Shown piece after piece: positions 3,301-18,500 of a stretch of 64,000 bases of DNA; positions within the stretch are counted from its first letter, which is position 1; each line of letters begins with the position of its first letter. The stretch comes from Ascidia mentula (taxonomy: Eukaryota > Chordata > Ascidiacea > Phlebobranchia > Ascidiidae), in NCBI GenBank assembly GCA_947561715.1, contig OX387199.1:5027001-5091000 (forward strand), in the 5' to 3' direction. The notes beneath the pieces are model-generated. The model saw only the letters and a list, made by a program, of their open reading frames with translations, had not been told where the DNA came from and did no database searches. A program made the translations under genes and the position numbers.

Positions 3301-6300
3301 ATCTTTACTTTGAGATTCAAGTCGGTGGTGTTACGTCACAATGCGTTTTTTGTCAGCCATATAACAAGGTTTTAACATCCTTCTGTAAGTTTGCATGGTC
3401 CGGGCTGTATTACAAAATGCGTAATTGTGAAAATAGGACTTATCGAGCGCATAACGTGAGTATTTACTAGTTTGCGCGCGGATCCTCTGGGAATGCTCTA
3501 TACAGCCCCCAGAACTGCTGGTTTACAATCCTTGCTATGAACGAATCCCACACTGCACATATGTGGACTGCGCCGGCAGTGTCACTGACCCCTAGCAATA
3601 CACTGTATCCCTTTATTTTTTAGACACGGTCTTTGACATGGTGAACCACGAGACAGACAAACTGGAAACAAAACGCAAGTCGAAGGGGAAGTACCTTGAT
3701 GCAGGTCGGTAAAACGCCTGGTTTATTTTTGGGTTGTCAGTTGTCGATGCCTGCCCGCAGACTTGTTTTCAGGGTTATTTATTGAATTCCCCCATTGTTC
3801 CGCATACATCAGTGCATCCTGATTGACGTTTGGTCTTCACGACCTTCCGGTCCATATATTACAAAAATTATTGGTCGTTGTTTTGTTTAAAAATTACGTG
3901 AAATGCTAAAAAATAGGTGTGTGGTCGAGTGCTTCCCAATGTGAGAAGTGAGAATTTTGTTGAATGTTTAAGACCTAACAGCTTTAACCTGCCTATCTCT
4001 GGCATAGTCAGGACCGCCATACCCTTTATTCGAAAAGAAATTAAGAATGCAGGCAAAATAAGACATTAAAAAGTTACCCGACGTCTCTTGTTAAAAATTG
4101 CGTTTGATTTTGGTGGGTTCTGGAATAGTTTTTTGAATTAAATTGGACTTGTTTCGACCTATAGAAATTGGCGTTTTTTTAGCTTTTTTAAATTTGATTC
4201 TGTCTGCATTCACGTCGATAGTATTAAATCCCATAAGAGTAATATGTAAGGGGTCAGACGTATTCAGCCAATTCAAAAACTCGTCTGACAAAAAAACATT
4301 TATGTCTGACGGGCCTTTAAATTGACTGAATATTATGCGTGGCTGCGTCATCAACAAGTTACGTCTGACATATAAAACGTGTCACGCGATACTTTGGGAC
4401 TCAACATAAAATACGAATAATTAATCATAATCTGAAACACTGAAATAGACAGGAGCCCCCAATCAAACTTATCAGCAGAAGCAATAAGAAATGCGCTACA
4501 TCTAATAGCTGCCCTTTAAACATGGATTTGCGACACAAGCACCATGTAGGCTATGAAATATTAATAGGGTATGAATAAATCAACGTACATCTGATATTGA
4601 ATGCGTGTGTTGCCTCGTGCAGTAGTGCGGTTTCCATTTCCAGTCTACGTCATAGTAATGTACATTCACCTGTAATGGGGTGTAACATGTGGGCAAAATG
4701 CGCGGAGGGATTATTGGAATATATGCTAGACTTCTGCGTTGGAGTAAAGTGTTACCAGCCTAACATTAACAGCTTTAGGCGAACACAAATACACCCCACC
4801 CCCTTCGCCCGTAACATGAAAACAAAACTGTCTAAATTATTGTTGAAATTTTGTACCTAAAGCTGTGTTGCAAACTGTTGAACAGTTTAATCTTCATATT
4901 TAATTTTGCTGAACGCTCTGCAGTGACCTTGATCGCCTGAAACAATGGAACAGAAAATTCTTTATTGCTTTTTTTAATTACTCAATTGCAAGAACCCCAA
5001 GAAACACTTGACTGTATAACCGATGAAACGATCAAACTGGGTGTTGTTTTCGCGGCTTCGTTAACCTAAAACCGGTATTTTTCTTACGCAGAGAAGCTCC
5101 AGGACGATTGCGTGTTACACGGTGTGATGTACAAGCTGGGAGGCCCACTCAGCTTGACCACGTGGCAAAAACGATATTTCTATCTCTACCCGAATAGGTT
5201 GGAATGGAAGGACCAAGAAGGGAGCGTAAGAACTGCTTGTGTTTCCAAATTTTTCCATGAAATTGTTAGAATAACTATCAGAATCACCAAATAGTCTTAT
5301 GGGCAACGAGGACTTGGCATTTTTCGATAAGTTATAAAAGAAAACTCTAAGCCGTTTGTCGTTGTAGATTTAATCTACTATCAGACATCGTCAGTATCAC
5401 TTATCTAAATCCAGTCATAAGGACAAATGACTTGGGGTCTTTTTCTTGCTTAACTTTTGCGTTGCATTTATTTCATGAATGAATTTTTAACGGAAAGAGT
5501 GCATAAACGATGACGATTTAACGTAACCAGTGCAGTCCGTATAACTGATGTATAATTCATCGGCATACACTTTCTACAACCATTCTCAACTAATTTTACG
5601 AATTGAAACACTTCACTTACAAAGCACATACGGATCGACTAAACGTCGGTGCTATATGTCATGTCGTCATCAATCCGTTGCAAAGCGACGCATTTCCGCT
5701 GTAACACCTGACAGCCCACTGTGCAATGTTAAATTCCCACCTCCACATACTGTGTTGAGCCGGACATGGAAAGGCGGAAGCGTGGGTTTTTATGGTAACA
5801 CGATGCGGTCAATTGCAGAAAAATCTGGTGGTGTTCGAGTCGGTGACCATGATTAAGGAGGGGCAAGCGAAGGGCATGAAGTATTGCATCTTCATATCGG
5901 CCCGTGATACCAACAAAGACATCATCATACGAGCAGAGGTGATTTGCTTATCGTGCTTCTATTGTGTGGTAATGTAAAGGTTACCTGTCGTGCTGTGCGC
6001 TTGCGCACTAGTGTATCGTGACCACAATATACCCTGTTCAACCGCTGAGCTCATGTAGCTCAGTTGGTAGAGCGTTGGGCCTGGTTCGCCCAGGGTCGTG
6101 AGTTCAAACCTCACCGGAAGCTTGACTTGATCCAGCTTGGCTGCGAAGCCAGTATGATTAAATCTACCTTGCCAATAACAGTTAATGAAATGACCCAAGT
6201 CCTCCGCGATAACTTGGAGCGAGATCTGAAAATCAAGTCGCAAATCCTCACGACTTTTGAACATATTTTACCGATTCTCTCTGTTATTGTACTATTCTAC

Positions 6301-8812: not shown

Positions 8813-10258
8813 CCACCTTTCGTCGCAGGGCCCACTTCTCCTTCACCGTGGAATGCTGCAAGTTGTGTTGGCTCTCTGGCGCCCACGGGCGGTCGCGCCG
8901 TTCGTTGCGTATTGTCCGATGGTCTTTTTTGTTTTGTGCGCTCGTTTGATTCGGGCTCGGCAAATATTGTGCAAGTATCTCAATATTTTTATGGTTTAAC
9001 TCATTTGTTTCACTTCACGTACGCGTTGTTATAATCATTTAAGATCGCGGCAAATTACATCAGAAATATCTGAATTAACAAAAAAAAAAAATATTCGTGA
9101 CGTGAATATCGTTGAATTGTACTTAAAATGTGTGAGTTTTGTCATGTGTAAAACCCACACTCATTATCGCCACTACTCTGAACTTCCGCTAGTGAACTAC
9201 TCTCAACACAGCGGGTCAAAGCTTTAAATCGCCACCAACATCATGGTTTTAATATTTCAGTTCTTGCGAACATCCCCTAACTCAGCATGATGGTGTTTGG
9301 TTACAAACACAATTTTAAGCAACATGGGCAAATCAACATAATTTGGCCATTATATATACATCATATGTAGTAACGTATACGTCACCAGAAAATAACTTTT
9401 TCGTGTTACTCCCATGTTCAACCAACCGAGCGCTTTATTCGAATTTGCTTCCCCTGACAACGTAGGTCCGGCACACCTTTCTGGTGACCCCGTACCTAAA
9501 GCTTAACTGTTACACCATCAGGTCCAAATTATCCATGTCCAAATTTCTAACGAGCACTTTGTCTAAAAAATCACCCACCGGGATTTTCCCGACAGGTACG
9601 ACACCCTTATGTCTACAGTGACGTCATAGCGTGAGGTACACTCTGTTTGTTGTATCTTTTTCACGGTATGAAATTGTTCACGAAATATGTTTCGTTCGGC
9701 GTTTTTTTGGGGCACTAAACAAGCAGTTTCACAGCGCTTGCGCGATAAATGGCCACAATTATGAAAGTTGGCAATTTGTGAAAGTCCCAATTTTCCATCC
9801 GTTGAGATGTTTTTTAATTCAAAACAACAAAACCGGTCATATTTGCTGTTACTTGGTGTTCAACAACACTCCGTTAAGTTTTCCGCCAACTTGCATCAGT
9901 ATTCCGCTTTTAACTGACCGAGCACTTAACGAGTATAGATTGTCACGTGACCTGTGATGTAGAACACGTGATCTATTTAACCCCGGAAGTTGACGCGACT
10001 TGAAAATGTCGCTTTGCACAAATATTCTTTGTCGCTTACACCGTATCTAAATGTCCGCGTTGCGCGTATTGACAAAGACGTCGTATCTGTCAGCGGTTAA
10101 TAATAATAACGCGTCTAAACAACAAAGTTTCTCGAAAAAGATGTTTTCTTGACGTCATATTAGCAACAACTGCCTTTGTTTCATCGTGTCACCATTTATA
10201 CTTCTGTACACAGGCTGTTCCGCTGGTCATTCGTGTGCGTTTTGTCGACTTTTGCACA
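8813..10258. other. GRK 3' UTR and intergenic sequence
   Basis: No convincing exon. There are short random reading frames only, an A-run near 9081, and two CRE palindromes (9619-9626, 10150-10157). I saw no canonical AATAAA close behind the GRK stop, so the GRK transcript end is not placed. Confidence 0.5.
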
Positions 10259-11520
10259 TAAGCTCACCTCCCCCCATCTTCTCTTACGTAGCGCACCCCC
10301 ATTTCTCTGTGACGTCCCATTCTAAGACCGAATTCTGAGGGAGACGTTATTTTTCGTGTTTTCGACTTCCTATAACATAGTGTACTTAAGTTTACTGTGT
10401 TTTCTTAATCGCCCTCGTGCGGACGCGCGTACCTACAATGTCGGAAGCGTTGTTTGGGAAGTTGTAGTTGTGTATGTAGGTAGTTATGTATGTGAGTGTG
10501 TGTGCATTTGTTCATTTTCTTCATTGTACACGAGCGCTACCCTGTCTAGATTCACAGTCTCACCTTTTGAGGTACAAAAACACGGAATTTTGTATCTATT
10601 TGATTTTTTGTTTAACTCCACAATTAAAACACCCATAAACATGACTTTCCAACATTTTGACTCCGACGTGCTTCTAAAAATTCGAAGAACGTCTAAAAAT
10701 ACCTCCAGGCCACCCTCATCATGTTATTCGTTTCAGACATTTTAAATTTTACGCAGTGTTCCGCGGAGCGCATATCGCGACCAATACGCCCTCTAGAGGC
10801 CGGGTTTCGCGCAAGTTTTAATTTTTACTGCGGTGACGAATTCTCGTTTGTTCGGAGTTAACTGTGCCATACTCAATACAGCACTCCGATAAGTTGAGTG
10901 GGTTTTGTTTCGTTTTATCTATGAAGCTGCTCGTTTGCTGGAAACTGTAACGTGAGGTCCTTTTTTGCAAATTTGCATTCGAGCTTTTATTTGAGCCACA
11001 CAGACTATGACACAAGCTTTACTCCATTTCGGTGACGTCATCCAAGTCTTGGTCTGCGCAAACATTATTATAATTAAAAAACAGTTATATCTTCGGCTAC
11101 ATCTAACAATAGGCTTTAAAAAATCTTTAAGTGCTCTCTGGCGGTACTATTTTAATTTTAAACAACAAGTGGGCCGTCTTATAATTGAAATATTCGCTAA
11201 GTTCCATTGTAGACTTGTGTCTGGATCAAGTATATCGACCAATCTGCGTCCCGGTGTATTTGCATTTTCCACAAGACAAAACTCACTTGTGTTTTCCAGT
11301 GCTTCGGCCATGGCGGCATCAAACATTTTATCCTGTCACGAAAAAGTCTTGGTTATCTTTTCACGGTATAAAAGCAAGCGTTGGCCAATGCGTATTACCG
11401 CATCAGCACCAATGTTGAACAATCATATGTTAAATTTCTTCAATACGCCGTGTCAGTCTCAGTTCCATAGCTTTAGTATTTGCTTTTGCACTGTTTTGGA
11501 CAGACTGACTGTTTAAAAAT

Positions 11521-11526
11521 TTTATT
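11521..11526 (-). terminator. Polyadenylation signal AATAAA of peptide gene copy 1
   Basis: Reads TTTATT on the plus strand. It lies about 90 nt past the read-through stop of the copy-1 peptide gene and has a counterpart at 14478-14483. Confidence 0.55.
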
Positions 11527-11611
11527 TGCACGAGCTTTCGCGAATGATATTAAGTTTTTCGCACTGGGATGAACCTCTTAGCCTTGAACTCGCTTGCATA
11601 TCATAATTTCA

Positions 11612-12089
11612 TCAGAGCGGGTGTCTGTTCGCGGCTTGACAACCCAACCAGCTTACCTGCTCCTCAGGAGACAACCCATGTTCACTGTCCCAGATAAACT
11701 TGGCACCTCTTGCGGCGGATGTCAATACTTTTGTCCAACCGCCGCCGCGCCTGCGTCGACGTGGCCTGGGTGCTGCTTGCCTGTGATTTGCAATGGTCAA
11801 CTTACAATGTGATGACATAGCGGCCTACCATTATACACATTGTTTACGATGATAAATCGTTACAACGTACCGCTTATATAGCTTGTGACACCGATTGAAC
11901 ATTTCGTGCCATGGGTTTTAGACGGTTACACACGAACACAATCATCTCTTGTTAGAAAAGAATATATTTTAAAGCATTTATGACCTACCGTTGCTGCGCA
12001 TGGTAGTGCTGACCACGTCGCTGACGGGTGTACGCCGCGGTGGATAATTCAACAACCAACAGAAGAAGGCAAAGTACGACTACCTTCAT
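11612..12089 (-). CDS. Antimicrobial-peptide-like precursor, copy 1
   Basis: Probably a secreted cationic defence peptide. Exon 1 (12089-11989) encodes a signal peptide (MKVVVLCLLLLVVELSTA) and a pro-part (QRRGQHYHAQQ); exon 2 (11780-11657) continues with a run of five arginines (RPRRRRR), a likely furin-type cut, then GGGWTKVLTSAARGAKFIW and an acidic tail DSEHGLSPEEQ. A signal, basic helix and acidic C-terminal piece is the layout of tunicate precursors such as styelins, clavanins and the Ciona Ci-MAM/Ci-PAP families; no specific orthologue is claimed. After SPEEQ a good donor (CAG then GTAAGC) is present. If it is unused, the frame runs VSWLGCQAANRHPL to a stop at 11612; if used, the last exon is uncertain. 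TATA at 12156-12161 and AATAAA at 11521-11526 frame the gene. Confidence 0.75.
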
Positions 12090-12155
12090 TTTCTACACAG
12101 TTTTCAAGTAGAGACACTTTCCAAAACTATGGTTCCAGCCCGAGGTTTGACTGTA

Positions 12156-12161
12156 TTTATA
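12156..12161 (-). promoter_or_regulatory. TATA box of peptide gene copy 1
   Basis: TATAAA on the minus strand, about 70 bp upstream of the ATG at 12089. It is preserved in copy 2 at 15111-15116. Confidence 0.55.
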
Positions 12162-12637
12162 TGATATCTAAAACGACAAAGATTTAATTAAAAACCGGTG
12201 GAGGCGAATGAATTTACATACTACTGATTTTCTTTACGCACTCCAAGTAGTTCATTTTAGGCCAAGGAAGTCTTGAACCCCGTTTTCAATTCATAAGTGT
12301 ATTGTGCCATGCCACGGGATTCAAAACAGCATCCGAAGCAAAATTTGGTTTATTCAGAGTTGTGATTCTCCAAATTGTGGACCGCTGGGTCAGTTCTTTG
12401 CATACAGTTTTGTGAACTTTGCGATGCTGTCATGAGTTTAGAGCGAAGTGATTTCTTTTTGCCTGCATAATCCTACTAATACTGCAGTACAATATGATGC
12501 TAGTATACTATGCTTATGTCAACACCTGCAATGACACCCGCGACACGATGTATGCGACACAAAGTTGTTGTGCACTCATGCGTTACAATTTGTCGTAAGT
12601 GCCGGAAAGCAAATTGGTTGGAATTTTACGAAGGAAA

Positions 12638-13112
12638 ATGTCTTCATCTTGTGCCAAAAACGTCGGTTTGGTAATATCGCTGTGTGTTGCTCTTGTCGGT
12701 GCTTTGTATGTGGATCAAATAGGAAAATTTGACTGGAAAAAATCGCTTGTCGGCAAGGTAGGAAATGGTTGGTAATTTTATAAATTGTATACAAGGTTTG
12801 TTTATTTAAATGCATTTTATGTAAATTTCACAGTTATTTGCACAATAGAGGTACTGTATATATTTACATTTGCCAATATTTGTTTACTAATTGCAAAAAA
12901 ATTGAACAATATTTGAAATTTTTGCAATATGAGTCAAAAGTGTTGTTTACATTTGCAAGTACAGTTGGTTGCATTTGATAGTTCTGTTTCTTTGGGAAAA
13001 CATATTTATGTTGCTACGGAGAGAAATGTGTTAGCAAGCATCAGCGCCAAGAACGGTCAAATGTACTAGAGAAAAACGCTAAGTCCCAATGATGGAAAAG
13101 TAAGCAGGAAAT
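12638..13112 (+). pseudogene. EMC1: EMC1 5' stub (exons 1-2 only), dead copy
   Basis: Duplicate of the start of EMC1. Exon 1 (12638-12757) still reads as the signal-peptide exon with an intact donor. The exon-2 equivalent (12959-13099) has lost its acceptor (CAG became CAA) and carries an in-frame TAG at 13067-13069 where the working copy has Trp. Nothing downstream of exon 2 was duplicated, so it cannot make EMC1. The promoter region is copied too, so a short transcript is possible. Confidence 0.9.
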
Positions 13113-13214
13113 TGTCCACTGTGGTAGACTTAGATACTTCCTCCTGATGAAGGCTGTTGCATAATAGCCGAAACGTCGAGAAACGTAAATACAATAAAGT
13201 TTGCCAGAAGAGCA
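13113..13214 (+). repeat. Unrelated spacer at the duplication junction, retroelement-end-like
   Basis: About 100 bp between the two copies. It contains CTGATGA (13144-13150), a GGCT/AGCC stem and GAAAC (13170-13174), then AATAAAG. The motif order resembles hammerhead-type ends of Penelope-like elements, but the flanking arms do not pair, so this is only a resemblance. Confidence 0.45.
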
Positions 13215-14477
13215 GTAGCTCACCTCCCCCCATCTTCTCTTACGTAGCGCACCCCCGTTTCTCTGTGACGTCTCATTCTAAGACCGAATTCTGAGGGAGG
13301 CGTTATTTTTCGTGTTTTCGACTTCCTATAACATAGTGTACTTAATTTACTGTGTTTTCTTTATCGCCTTCGTGCGGACGCGCGTACCTACAATATCGGG
13401 ATCGTTGTTTGGGAAGTTGTAGTTGTGTATGTAGGTAGTTATGTATGTGAGTGTGTGTGCATTTGTTCATTTTCTTCATTGTACACGAGCGCTACCCTGT
13501 CTAGATTCACAGTCTCACCTTTTGAGATACAAAAACACGGAATTTTGTATCTATTTGATTTTTTGTTTAACTCCACAATTAAAACACCCATAAACATGAC
13601 TTTTCAACATTTTGACTCCGACGTGCTTCTAAATATTCGAAGAACGCCCAAAAATACCTCCCGGCCACCCTCATCATGTTATTCGTTTTAGACATTTTAA
13701 ATTTTACGCAGTGTTCCGCGGAGCGCATATCGCAACCAATACGCCCTCTAGAGGCCGGGTTTCGCGCAAGTTTTAATTTTTACTGCGGTGACGAATTCTC
13801 GTTTGTTCGGAGTTAACTGTGCCATACTCAATACAGCACTCCGATAAGTTGAGTGGGTTTTGTTTCGTTTTATCTGTGAAGCTGCCCGTTTGCTGGAAAC
13901 TGTTACGTGAGGTCCTTTTTTGGCAAATTTGCATTCGAGCTTTTATTTGAGCCACACAGATGATGACACAAGCTTTACTCCATTTCGGTGACGTCATCCA
14001 AGTCTTGGTCTGCGCAAACAAGATTATAATTAAAAAACAGTTATATCTTCGGTTACATCTAACAATAGGCTTTAAAAAATCTTTAAGTGCTCTCTGGCGG
14101 TACTATTTTAATTTTAAACAACAAGTGGGCCGTCATATAATTGAAATATTCGCCAAGTTCCATTGCAGACTTCTGTCTGGATCAAGTAGGTATCGACCAA
14201 TCTGTGTCCCGGTGTATTTGCATTTTCCACAAAACAATACTCACTTGTGCTTTCCAGTGCTTCGGCCATGGCGGCATCAAACATTTCATCCTGTTACGAA
14301 AAAGTCTTGGTTATCTTTTCACGGTATAAAAGCAAGCGTTGGCCAATGCGTATTACCGCATTAGCACCAATGTTAAACAATATTAGGTTGAATTTCTTCA
14401 ATACGCTGTGTCAGTCTTAGTTCTACAGCTTTAGTATCTGCTGGTGCACTGATTTGAACAGACTGACTGTTTATAAA

Positions 14478-14483
14478 TTTTAT
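14478..14483 (-). terminator. Polyadenylation signal AATAAA of peptide gene copy 2
   Basis: Reads TTTATT on the plus strand, about 110 nt past the read-through stop of the copy-2 peptide gene, and matches the copy-1 signal. Confidence 0.55.
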
Positions 14484-14594
14484 TCGCACGAGCTTTCGCG
14501 AATGATATTAAGTTATACGTACTGGGATGAACCTCTTAGCCGTGAACTCGCTTGCATATCATGATTTCATCCGAGCGGGTGTCTGTTCGCGGCT

Positions 14595-15043
14595 TTAACA
14601 ATTTAACCAGCTTACCTGCTCCTCAGGAGACATTACATCTTCGTTGTCCCAGATAAACTTGGCAACTTTTGCGCCGAATCTCAATACTTTTTTCCAACCG
14701 CCGCCGCGCCTGCGTCGACGTGGCCTGGGTGCTGCTTGCCTGTGATTTGCAATGGTCAACTTACAATGTGATGACATAGCGGCCTACCATTATACACGTT
14801 GTTTACGATGATAAATCGTTACCGTACCGCTTATATAGCTTGTGACGCCAATTGAATATTTCGTGTCATGGGTTTTTTACATATGTACACGAGCATAATC
14901 ATCTCTTGTTAGAAAAGAAAATATTTTAAAGCATTTACGACTTACCGTTGTTGCGCATGGTAGTGACCACGTCGCTGACGGATGTACGCCGCGGTGGATA
15001 ATTCAACAACCAACAGAAGAAGACAAAGTACGAGTACCTTCAT
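14595..15043 (-). CDS. Antimicrobial-peptide-like precursor, copy 2 (more cationic)
   Basis: Paralogue of the gene at 11612-12089. Exon 1 is 15043-14946 (MKVLVLCLLLLVVELSTA, then QRRGHYHAQQ); exon 2 is 14739-14616 (RPRRRRR, GGGWKKVLRFGAKVAKFIW, DNEDVMSPEEQ). Read-through past the donor ends VSWLNC at 14595. The predicted basic segment has five Lys/Arg against three in copy 1, spaced to form an amphipathic helix, followed by an acidic tail that may hold the peptide inactive until cleaved. It faces away from EMC1: its ATG and the EMC1 ATG are 548 bp apart, so the two genes may share a promoter region. The secreted-peptide reading rests on composition and layout, not on a family match. Confidence 0.78.
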
Positions 15044-15110
15044 TTTCTACGCAGTTTTAAGTAGAGACACTTTCCAAAACTATAGTTTCAGCCCTGGAGG
15101 TTTGACTGTA

Positions 15111-15116
15111 TTTATA
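15111..15116 (-). promoter_or_regulatory. TATA box of peptide gene copy 2
   Basis: TATAAA on the minus strand, about 70 bp upstream of the ATG at 15043. Confidence 0.55.
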
Positions 15117-15590
15117 TGATATCTAAAACGACAAAGATTTGATTAAAAACCGGTGGAGGCGAATGAATTTACATACTACTATTTTCTTTACGCACTCCAA
15201 ATAGTTCATTTTAGGCCAAGGAAGTCCTGAACCCCGTTTCATTCCATAAGTGTGTTGTGCCATGCCACGGGATTCAAAACAGCATCCGAAGAAAAAGTTG
15301 GTTTATTCAGAGTTGTGATTCTCCAAGTTGTGGACCGCTGGGTCAGTTCTTTGCATACAGTTTTGTGAACTTTGCGATGCTGTCATGAGTTTAGAGCGAA
15401 GTGATTTCTTTTTGCCTGCATAATCCTACTAATACTGCAGTACAATATGATGCTAGTATACTATGCTTATGTCAACACCTGCAATGACACCCGCGACACG
15501 ATGTATGCGACACAAAGTTGTTGTGCACTCATGCGTTACAATTTGTCGTAAGTGCCGGAAAGCAAATTGGTTGGAATTTTACGAAGGAAA

Positions 15591-18500
15591 ATGTCTTCGT
15601 CTTGTGCCAAAAACGTCGGTTTGGTAATATCGCTGTGTGTTGCTCTTGTCGGTGCTTTGTATGTGGATCAAATAGGAAAATTTGACTGGAAAAAATCGCT
15701 TGTCGGCAAGGTAGGAAATGGTTGGTAATTTTATAAATTGTATCAAGGTTTGTTTATTTAAATGCATTTTATGTAAATTTCACAGTTATTTACACAATAG
15801 AGGTACTGTATATATTTACATTTGCCAATATTTGTTTGCTAATTGCAAAAAATTGAACAATATTTGAAATTTTTGCAATATAAGTCAAAAGTGTTGTTTA
15901 CATTTGCAGGTAGAGTTGGTTGCATTTGATAGTTCTGTTTCTTTGGGAAAACATATTTATGTTGCTACGGAGAGAAATGTGTTAGCAAGCATCAGCGCCA
16001 AGAATGGTCAAATAAACTGGAGAAAAACGCTAAGTCCCAATGATGGAAAAGTAAGCAGGAAAAACTACAACTCATATATTTGTAAATAATTTAATTTGTG
16101 GTTTTTAACATTGCAATCTGTGTAATTTTTTTGTGCCCAAAGTTCAGTTATTGATAGTTATACTCCACATTGGAAAAAAATGTCGTGGATAAATCCTCCG
16201 CACACTTTTGCGAAAATTTGCCGATAATCCGCACAATATTAATTAGCTAATGCATTACCTTACGAAAAAACGTTGAAATCCTCTGCGCAAAAAACAAACT
16301 TTCCAATCTGGGTTATACTTGCTATGTCTGGATACCACACAACTTTACATCTGTTAACATAGTGATTTGCCAGATTAGAAAGTTTGTAAAGGGTGGATTT
16401 CTTTTTTTGGCAATCATCAATTGTGCGGGTTTTGCACAGAAATCTCACTTTTTTATGTTAATGCATTAGCTAATGGTTTTGCCAATAAAATTGCGAAAAT
16501 TTGATTTCCAATCAAGGTAATATGTAAGTAACCATGGTGAGTGTAAACAACACATATTCTTCAGATAAATTCTTTGACTCATGTTCGAGACGGTTTAGTG
16601 GTTGTCACAGACACTGGGGTATCACGTATATTTGATGCAGCTAGTGGTGTTATGAAGTGGGATGCAAACCTGGGGCTTGCCTCATTGTGAGTAGCAAGTA
16701 ACTAATAAACTATTATGCATACACATATATATATTACATTTACTACAATACACCCCCCCGTCCAACTGATGAGCTCCCGTAGCCCAGTTGGTAGAGCATT
16801 TGGCCTGGAAGCCCAGGGTATTGAGTTCAAACCTCACTGAGAGATTTTTCAGATCTCGCTCTGACTTGTCAGGAATAAGTGGCCTTGGATGCTATGCCCG
16901 CAACTTTTGTAGATATATGTATTATACAGCATGCACAATACTATTGTGTTTTTATGTTGTTATATCAGATAGTGTGTATTGTATATATTTAGCCATTTAT
17001 CTCCTTTTTTCAAAAACCAACAGGTGTAATAATTTTTTGAACACTTTGCACTTTCTGCAGGGATGATTCCACAGTTTACCAAGTTACAATTTTGGAACAA
17101 AGTTACACTGAAGGAAACTTGTTGGTTGTTTTGAGCAATGGTGGTATCTTTGCTGCCCCTCTCTCTAAAAATCATCCAAAGATAAAATCAGTGCTCTTTG
17201 AACATAGTATTGGAGAATCGAAGGATAATAAGGTATATACAAATTAGTTGTTCATAGCATGGAATATACATATATTAAGTAAGTGTTTGGCATTATTTTG
17301 CATGAAAAGAAGTGTTAAGTTTGTATGTTGTAATAGCATTTATGCAAAGTAAAACTATTTGGGAACTTACTTGTCTGTAGATGTTTGTGGATTCTCAGAA
17401 TGGACAGATTCTTCATCTGCAATTAGAGTTAAGAACGGGAATAAAAGTTACAATGTTTGATGCAAAACTGTTGGAAGTAAATTCTGAACTGACAGTTTCA
17501 AGTAATTGGTTAACCAGCCTCGACAAAGTAAGTATTGTTACAAACTGTTATCATGTATTGTGTAAGCTGCAGACAGATGGCCACTGTTTCGACATAAAAG
17601 TCTCATCTTATTATTGGCTCCAATTTGTTTATGTTATCATGTAGTTTGAACCTTTTGCAAAGTATGAATTATAAAGATCAACATTATCTAGGCTTATTTT
17701 ATCCTACAAAACACATAATTTCACAGAAAAGAAAACTTAGAAAAAAAAAATTTAAAAAGGCAATATGGAGTCAATAGTATAGACTATGTGAGCTGCAGAC
17801 AAAATATAACTTACAAATAAATTTTACCTTTGCAGGTTGCATTGTTGGAAGGAAATCAATTACTGTATAGTTGCAACGAACCAGAGGCTGAAATGTTGTA
17901 TGTCTATGATTTGAACAGTGGGAAGATTGTAAGCTCTCAAAACCTGGAGTTGCTTGGAATTGACACAGTTGCATCATTTGTGGCTTCCAGCAAGTAAAAA
18001 CACATATTTTTTATGTTTAAATGATATTTTAATCAGTCGAATAAAATGCAATTGCCTATATTGGTAAAGTGTTAGTAAATGTGCATATCAGTCTTCTGAA
18101 TTTACCAAATCAACACCATTTTCGGAATTTGAAACATATTACTTGACCTTATTTTCCGAAATTGCAGTTCAGATGCAAGCATACACAGCACCAATGTGTT
18201 GCTACGACACGGACAAGGAAAAGTTTCTCAAGTTAAAGTGGAGGACAATGAAATAACGGTACATATCATAACTTTTTCCTTGTCATTTTGCTTCCTCAAC
18301 TCCACTACATTACGTCTGTCCCTGAGCTTTTGTCATAACTTACATTGTTGTGAAATTCTACACAACTACTTACCTGTAGGTGGCGTGGACAAAAGAACTA
18401 GATTCGTTGAGAGATGTTGTCACCAAGCAACTTGGATCAGAAGAATATTCTTTCTTTACTTCTCTGAATGGCCATGAAATAATCATAACTGCCATGAATT

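Follow-up and report, generated by a model that had tools for sequence, protein, structure and literature searches.

Two tandem genes for probable linear cationic antimicrobial peptides, with a corrected exon structure, in the ascidian Ascidia mentula

The window analyzed here is a 64,000-nucleotide stretch of the Ascidia mentula genome (GenBank assembly GCA_947561715.1, contig OX387199.1, positions 5,027,001 to 5,091,000 of the forward strand) that contains two tandem copies of a gene for a short, putatively secreted peptide (Table 1). Both copies are on the minus strand, with start codons at positions 12089 (copy 1) and 15043 (copy 2), and lie in units of 2.85 kb that are duplicated head to tail with 95.3% identity and 116 mismatches. 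The window lies on contig C52, and the genome-wide searches covered the 195.8-Mb, 79-contig genome. The source genome is that of an ascidian, because COX1 on the 19.5-kb contig C79 regains its conserved glycines when translated with genetic code table 13 (AGR = Gly), whereas table 5 puts serine at these positions. The initial annotation described two tandem antimicrobial-peptide-like genes at this place, and both genes are probably real; however, it gave them two exons each. The coding end that it placed at 11612 is a read-through into an intron, as the residues EEQ precede the donor CAG/GTAAGC in both copies, and it missed exon 3, which in copy 1 lies outside the annotated span.

The corrected model is a gene with three or four exons. 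The donor of exon 1 follows CAACG, and exon 2, starting at 11780 in copy 1 and 14739 in copy 2, is preceded by the acceptor CACAG ahead of the arginine-rich stretch. Exon 3 encodes an acidic helix, in summary form DKMFDAAMAEALEN in copy 1 and DEMFDAAMAEALES in copy 2. TAA closes a tentative exon 4, with AATAAA 83 nt further on in both copies. The reading frames of both copies are open across the four exons. The two strands of the window together have 1139 pyrimidine-rich, acceptor-like sites in the right phase. An acidic helix-like 14-mer opens after 15 of them, and the only two of these with a donor at the right distance are those of the two exons 3; this filter was chosen after exon 3 had been seen and describes the exon rather than proves it. 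Similarly, the window has 12 signal-like ATGs; a donor lies downstream of three, two of which belong to the genes described here.

Two other readings of the gene were rejected. In the two-exon model, the coding sequence would continue from exon 2 into a tail (VSWLGCQAANRHPL or VSWLNC) with polyadenylation at 11528; however, the tail starts with a consensus donor, carries a 1-bp indel between the copies, and ends at different stops. The AATAAA near 11528 would suit this model, but it is a decoy within a dispersed repeat. Reading exon 3 to its own stop (61 and 58 codons) fails because a 2-bp indel shifts the frame, and the GTGAGT donor precedes the indel.

It could be argued that the locus holds no functional gene and that the frames are open by chance in non-coding or decaying DNA. 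The four exons together contain 15 nonsynonymous and four synonymous differences, a ratio as in unconstrained DNA, and the adjoining fragment of the gene EMC1 is dead. By contrast, 11 of the 12 indels between the units are located outside the exons and are 1–2 bp long, whereas the sole indel in the coding sequence has exactly 3 bp, and the splice, TATA, and AATAAA signals are kept in both copies. We consider the absence of a functional gene quite unlikely.

Table 1 Features of the tandem peptide genes and their surroundings (window positions; a slash marks the exon–intron border)
Feature	Position	Strand	Evidence or remark
TATAAA box	copy 1 12156-12161; copy 2 15116-15111	-	in both copies, 72-73 bp upstream of ATG
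Copy 1 exon 1: putative signal peptide MKVVVLCLLLLVVELSTAA, then first pro-part residues with RQRR	11989-12089	-	donor CG/GTAGGT
Copy 1 exon 2: putative RPRRRRR cut site, then cationic helix GGGWTKVLTSAARGAKFIW and beginning of acidic part	11657-11780	-	donor CAG/GTAAGC
Copy 1 exon 3: acidic helix DKMFDAAMAEALENT	11287-11332	-	acceptor CTTTTTCGTGACAG, donor A/GTGAGT, frame open in both copies
Tentative exon 4 of copy 1, encoding NVAEDITVF before the stop	11074-11102	-	phase-1 acceptor in both copies
AATAAA	copy 1 10986-10991; copy 2 13947-13942	-	present in both copies
Copy 2 exon 1	14946-15043	-	donor CG/GTAAGT
Copy 2 exon 2: cationic helix GGGWKKVLRFGAKVAKFIW	14616-14739	-	sequence; single-sequence AlphaFold2 model
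Copy 2 exon 3: acidic helix DEMFDAAMAEALEST	14245-14290	-	acceptor CTTTTTCGTAACAG, GTGAGT donor
Tentative exon 4 of copy 2, encoding NVTEDITVF before the stop	14030-14058	-	phase-1 acceptor in both copies
Tandem unit 1 (2.85 kb)	10261-13111		blastn self-comparison
Tandem unit 2	13217-16062		blastn self-comparison
First two EMC1 exons, frame open in unit 2; head-to-head neighbor of peptide copy 2	15591-16062	+	PDB sequence match
Dead EMC1 5' fragment in unit 1, remnant of duplication	12638-13111	+	changed acceptor, in-frame TAG
Junction linker, one arm of dispersed inverted-repeat element	13109-13217		genome search
Dispersed repeat arm in intron 2 of both peptide genes, with decoy AATAAA	11430-11543		genome search; ten copies read

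With the tentative exon 4, the precursors are 99 and 98 residues long, inside the range of 50–100 residues of the precursors of linear cationic α-helical antimicrobial peptides (LCAMPs) of Ciona. They start with MK, a hydrophobic core, and STAA, a pattern noted on visual inspection and in a simple scan for hydrophobicity. This putative signal is followed by a pro-part with RQRR and RPRRRRR, a helix with a charge of +3 in copy 1 and +5 in copy 2, and an acidic C-terminal part with a net charge of −9 and −12, respectively, and neither precursor contains cysteine downstream of the signal. The 16-residue cores of the helices have hydrophobic moments of 0.51 and 0.60, above those of about 97% of shuffled sequences (P = 0.030 and 0.027), and five Ciona peptides scored in the same manner over their best 18 residues have moments of 0.45–0.53. 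The study by Ohtsuka and Inagaki (PMC7387483) gives the cationic segment of Ciona LCAMPs as 18 residues with a hydrophobicity of 0–0.6, a moment of 0.1–1.0, a charge of 3–10, and no cysteine. Scored for these four properties, the 18-residue windows of the A. mentula peptides with charges of +3 to +5 fall within the limits, with hydrophobicities of 0.30–0.54 and moments of 0.41–0.58. For the C-terminal anionic helix, the same study gives a charge of −3 to −10 and a moment of 0–0.5; the stretch SPEEQD[KE]MFDAAMAEALE, scored for charge and moment, has charges of −5 and −7 and moments of 0.32 and 0.30. The AlphaFold2 model of the 41 residues encoded by exon 2 of copy 2, calculated from one sequence without an alignment, contains a single helix at residues 14–32, GWKKVLRFGAKVAKFIWDN, with a block mean pLDDT of about 94 in residues 21–30 and a mean of 79.1 for the whole model.

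The same gene structure could provide a secreted signaling peptide, similar to a hormone or neuropeptide, rather than a microbicide. Basic cut sites and a short secreted precursor fit this function too, and CiEMa, which is secreted by Ciona haemocytes, is proposed by its authors to be a signal (PMC10888236). However, glycine followed by a basic cut site is absent after the helix in both precursor sequences, as is a repeated peptide unit, and the antimicrobial layout is the one seen here, with an anionic helix behind a cationic amphipathic one. A signaling product has, in our view, a rather small chance of being the correct explanation.

We consider it likely that the locus contains two tandem copies of an ascidian linear cationic α-helical antimicrobial-peptide gene. 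The initial annotation recognized the layout of tunicate antimicrobial precursors, which is supported, and the missed acidic-helix exon brings the precursors closer to those of Ciona. From this layout we infer an antimicrobial function, and it suggests how the genes may be expressed and how their products may be processed and act. A TATA promoter, positioned head to head with EMC1, would drive the three- or four-exon gene, and the resulting precursor of 98–99 residues would pass into the secretory pathway. Cleavage at RPRRRRR by a furin-type protease could then release a tryptophan-flanked cationic helix of about 16–19 residues, which may bind to and break microbial membranes. The acidic C-terminal part would neutralize the helix until it is removed.

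The differences between the two copies had been put forward as a sign of diversifying selection on the mature peptide. The counts themselves hold: ten of the 30 residues from GGGW to EEQ differ because of 12 base changes, of which ten are nonsynonymous and two synonymous, on 71.3 and 18.7 sites, respectively (dN 0.155, dS 0.116, dN/dS 1.3; Nei–Gojobori). All six changes within the cationic helix alter the protein, and the reported increase from three to five basic residues corresponds to the rise in charge by two. The two substitutions noted in the 19-residue signal exist at the base level, one being silent and the other V4L, with T21I located just downstream. The residue lost from the pro-part is the one-codon indel, and the arginine-rich start of exon 2 is unchanged, as had been stated. 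However, the intron is not nearly unchanged: introns 1, 2, and 3 differ at 17 of 206 (8.3%), 28 of 324 (8.6%), and 7 of 184 sites, respectively. The claim of nearly unchanged flanks applies to the distant 5' flank (12090–13111), where 22 of 1017 sites differ and the EMC1 side is 98% identical, but not to the near 3' stretch (11233–11611), where 28 of 379 sites differ (7.4%). Divergence is, thus, elevated from about 11.3 to 12.0 kb, in the introns as well.

Diversifying selection on the mature peptide of this gene pair is not established. The ten changes in 71 nonsynonymous sites exceed the differences in the 5' flank (P = 1.5e-5; all such P values are one-sided and uncorrected), the 3' side to the end of the unit (P = 0.0011), and the whole unit (P = 0.0008). 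The 90-nt window with the most differences in the whole unit, 15 starting from 11632 (permutation P = 0.0003), overlaps exon 2. Nevertheless, the 10:2 split matches the neutral expectation (binomial P = 0.53), and other 90-nt windows with at least 12 differences start at 11396–11428 and at 11838–11921, the latter mostly in intron 1. The excess is marginal relative to introns 1–3 pooled (P = 0.044) and not significant relative to the near 3' stretch (P = 0.058), intron 1 (P = 0.12), or introns 1 and 2 together (P = 0.098), and the cationic helix alone gives P = 0.20 against introns 1 and 2 and P = 0.12 against the pooled introns. The mature segment therefore stands above the distant flanks but not significantly above introns 1 and 2; by the standard that the initial annotation set for itself, its claim fails against these introns and survives against the distant flanks. 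A single pair of copies offers little power. Gene conversion, or a duplication involving dissimilar alleles, would fit the patchy divergence no less well than selection acting on a single peptide, and we regard such selection as unlikely. In a related proposal, the pair would be a new antimicrobial-peptide family in which the duplicate has been reshaped as a charge-matched pair, the peptide and its built-in antidote changing together. The helix of copy 2 is more positive by two charges than that of copy 1, and its acidic C-terminal part is more negative by three; we give this proposal an equally low probability. If the locus is a pair of LCAMP genes, drift, or the retention of older allelic differences, would account for the changes over most of the gene since the duplication. 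Clustered amino-acid changes between two copies are weak evidence of selection when the introns of the same genes have changed nearly as much.

In each duplicated unit, the first part of EMC1 lies on the plus strand, head to head with the peptide gene. The EMC1 exons match the EMC1 sequence from the PDB (E = 2.3e-12), and exon 1 alone matches Pfam Beta-prop_EMC1_N with E = 2.2e-5, under the cut-off of the model. In unit 1, the acceptor of the exon 2 of unit 2 has been lost, and an alternative AG that keeps the frame leads to an in-frame TAG. The fragment stops where one arm (109 bp) of a dispersed inverted-repeat element starts. At least 50 matches of this arm are listed, including those from the window (40 of 369 candidates scored), and the element looks young because most of the matches are 98–100% identical. 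The heterozygosity of ascidians can reach several percent, which raises the possibility that two haplotypes were set in a row during assembly. However, the EMC1 fragment of unit 1 is broken and ends where the mobile-element arm begins, which argues for a true duplication, and positions 9000–16200 contain no N; we consider an assembly artefact highly improbable. The peptide-gene copies would thus originate from a local duplication that took along the now-dead EMC1 fragment, and an immune-type gene beside EMC1 would have been copied.

No third full-length copy of the unit was found among the matches listed from the genome (40 of 260 candidates scored). All 48 matches of the tandem unit outside the two units fall on the dispersed repeat around 11430–11543, which has at least 48 such matches with 76–92% identity among the scored candidates. 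At some places in the genome, this repeat arm has an inverted partner close by. A tRNA-Thr gene with the anticodon GGT is located at 6048–6123, and this single tRNA was all that Rfam identified in the window.

A tblastn search of the genome with the two-exon precursor of the initial annotation identified both tandem copies and one weak match on contig C2 (E = 0.25), which belongs to a separate, larger set of arginine-rich secreted precursors. No model reached its cut-off in Pfam (best 14.7 bits, cut-off 29.6) or NCBIfam (best 16.7 bits, cut-off 35), and the PDB sequence search with the two-exon precursor of copy 1 gave no meaningful match (best E = 0.71). The suggestion that the family may be undescribed is not contradicted, because tblastn detected no clear homologue at other places in the genome and no profile reached its cut-off.

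The precursors of the larger set contain MNKLLLALLLVAVL..EESEG and RRRR blocks, and tblastn places 25 of them at E ≤ 10 (L007 and L025–L044, of which L007 is the same place as L025, are on contigs C2, C70, C73, and C67). All ten of the plus-strand loci translated start with an MNK-type signal, and L007 has an acidic second exon after a donor, as read by eye. The signal of this set is similar to the consensus signal that PMC7387483 gives for the second Ciona LCAMP family, and the overall shape of its precursors is like that of the family too. The Ciona peptide KH.C1.640 used as a query has a single weak match elsewhere in the genome (E = 0.03).

Several observations weigh against the identification of the pair as LCAMP genes or set the pair apart from the peptides of Ciona. 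The signal MKVVVLCLLLLVVELSTAA does not match, by eye, the Ci-MAM consensus MDRKIVFALXLVXXLXVSXXXA, nor is the signal of the second Ciona family, MNKSALLXLLXXGLXVLXEXXXA, seen in the genes of the window (consensus sequences from PMC7387483). Exon 4 is weakly defined, and a simple pattern found no κB-like site in the promoter. The 105 bases from 11734 to 11838, comprising the arginine-rich part and 58 bases of intron 1, are unchanged between the copies, and protein constraint alone is insufficient to explain this because the run extends into the intron. KH.S908.1, KH.C1.1268, and KH.C1.640 did not match the locus as tblastn queries, in searches without a positive control. Among 16 of the 22 table-listed Ciona peptides, KH.S908.1 is the most similar (P = 0.0047, half-wise shuffles, the lowest of 32 tests); the similarity is not significant after correction, and we do not claim homology with Ciona LCAMPs.

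Papillosin, halocyntin, and clavanins are short linear cationic peptides of ascidians. Like styelins and botryllin of Styela and Botryllus, the A. mentula products would be cationic, partly helical ascidian peptides cut from a prepropeptide, as described for botryllin (PMC9966394). Botryllin differs in its 37-residue mature peptide with a charge of about +11, a KHK motif that is absent here, and a 158-residue precursor. The closer resemblance is to the LCAMPs of Ciona, most of whose precursors consist of a signal, a cationic helix, and an anionic helix (PMC7387483); the literature searched yielded nothing on the exon–intron structure of Ci-MAM-A. Both groups have short precursors, secreted in Ciona and presumably so in A. 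mentula, in which a cationic amphipathic helix precedes an anionic one, and arginine runs lie beside the helix in several of the Ciona peptides covered there, as in the A. mentula pair. Unlike the Ciona precursors described there, those of A. mentula have an arginine-rich pro-part (RQRR, RRRRR) ahead of the helix. KH.S908.1 ends in AEALEN, a stretch also present in exon 3 of copy 1. It is reported there to be induced by lipopolysaccharide, active below 3.125 µM against E. coli and S. aureus, and to keep its activity at 500 mM NaCl. The A. mentula genes, a probable new antimicrobial-peptide gene pair of this kind, contribute a candidate pair of peptides, together with a corrected gene model, to a group in which activity is known to tolerate salt.

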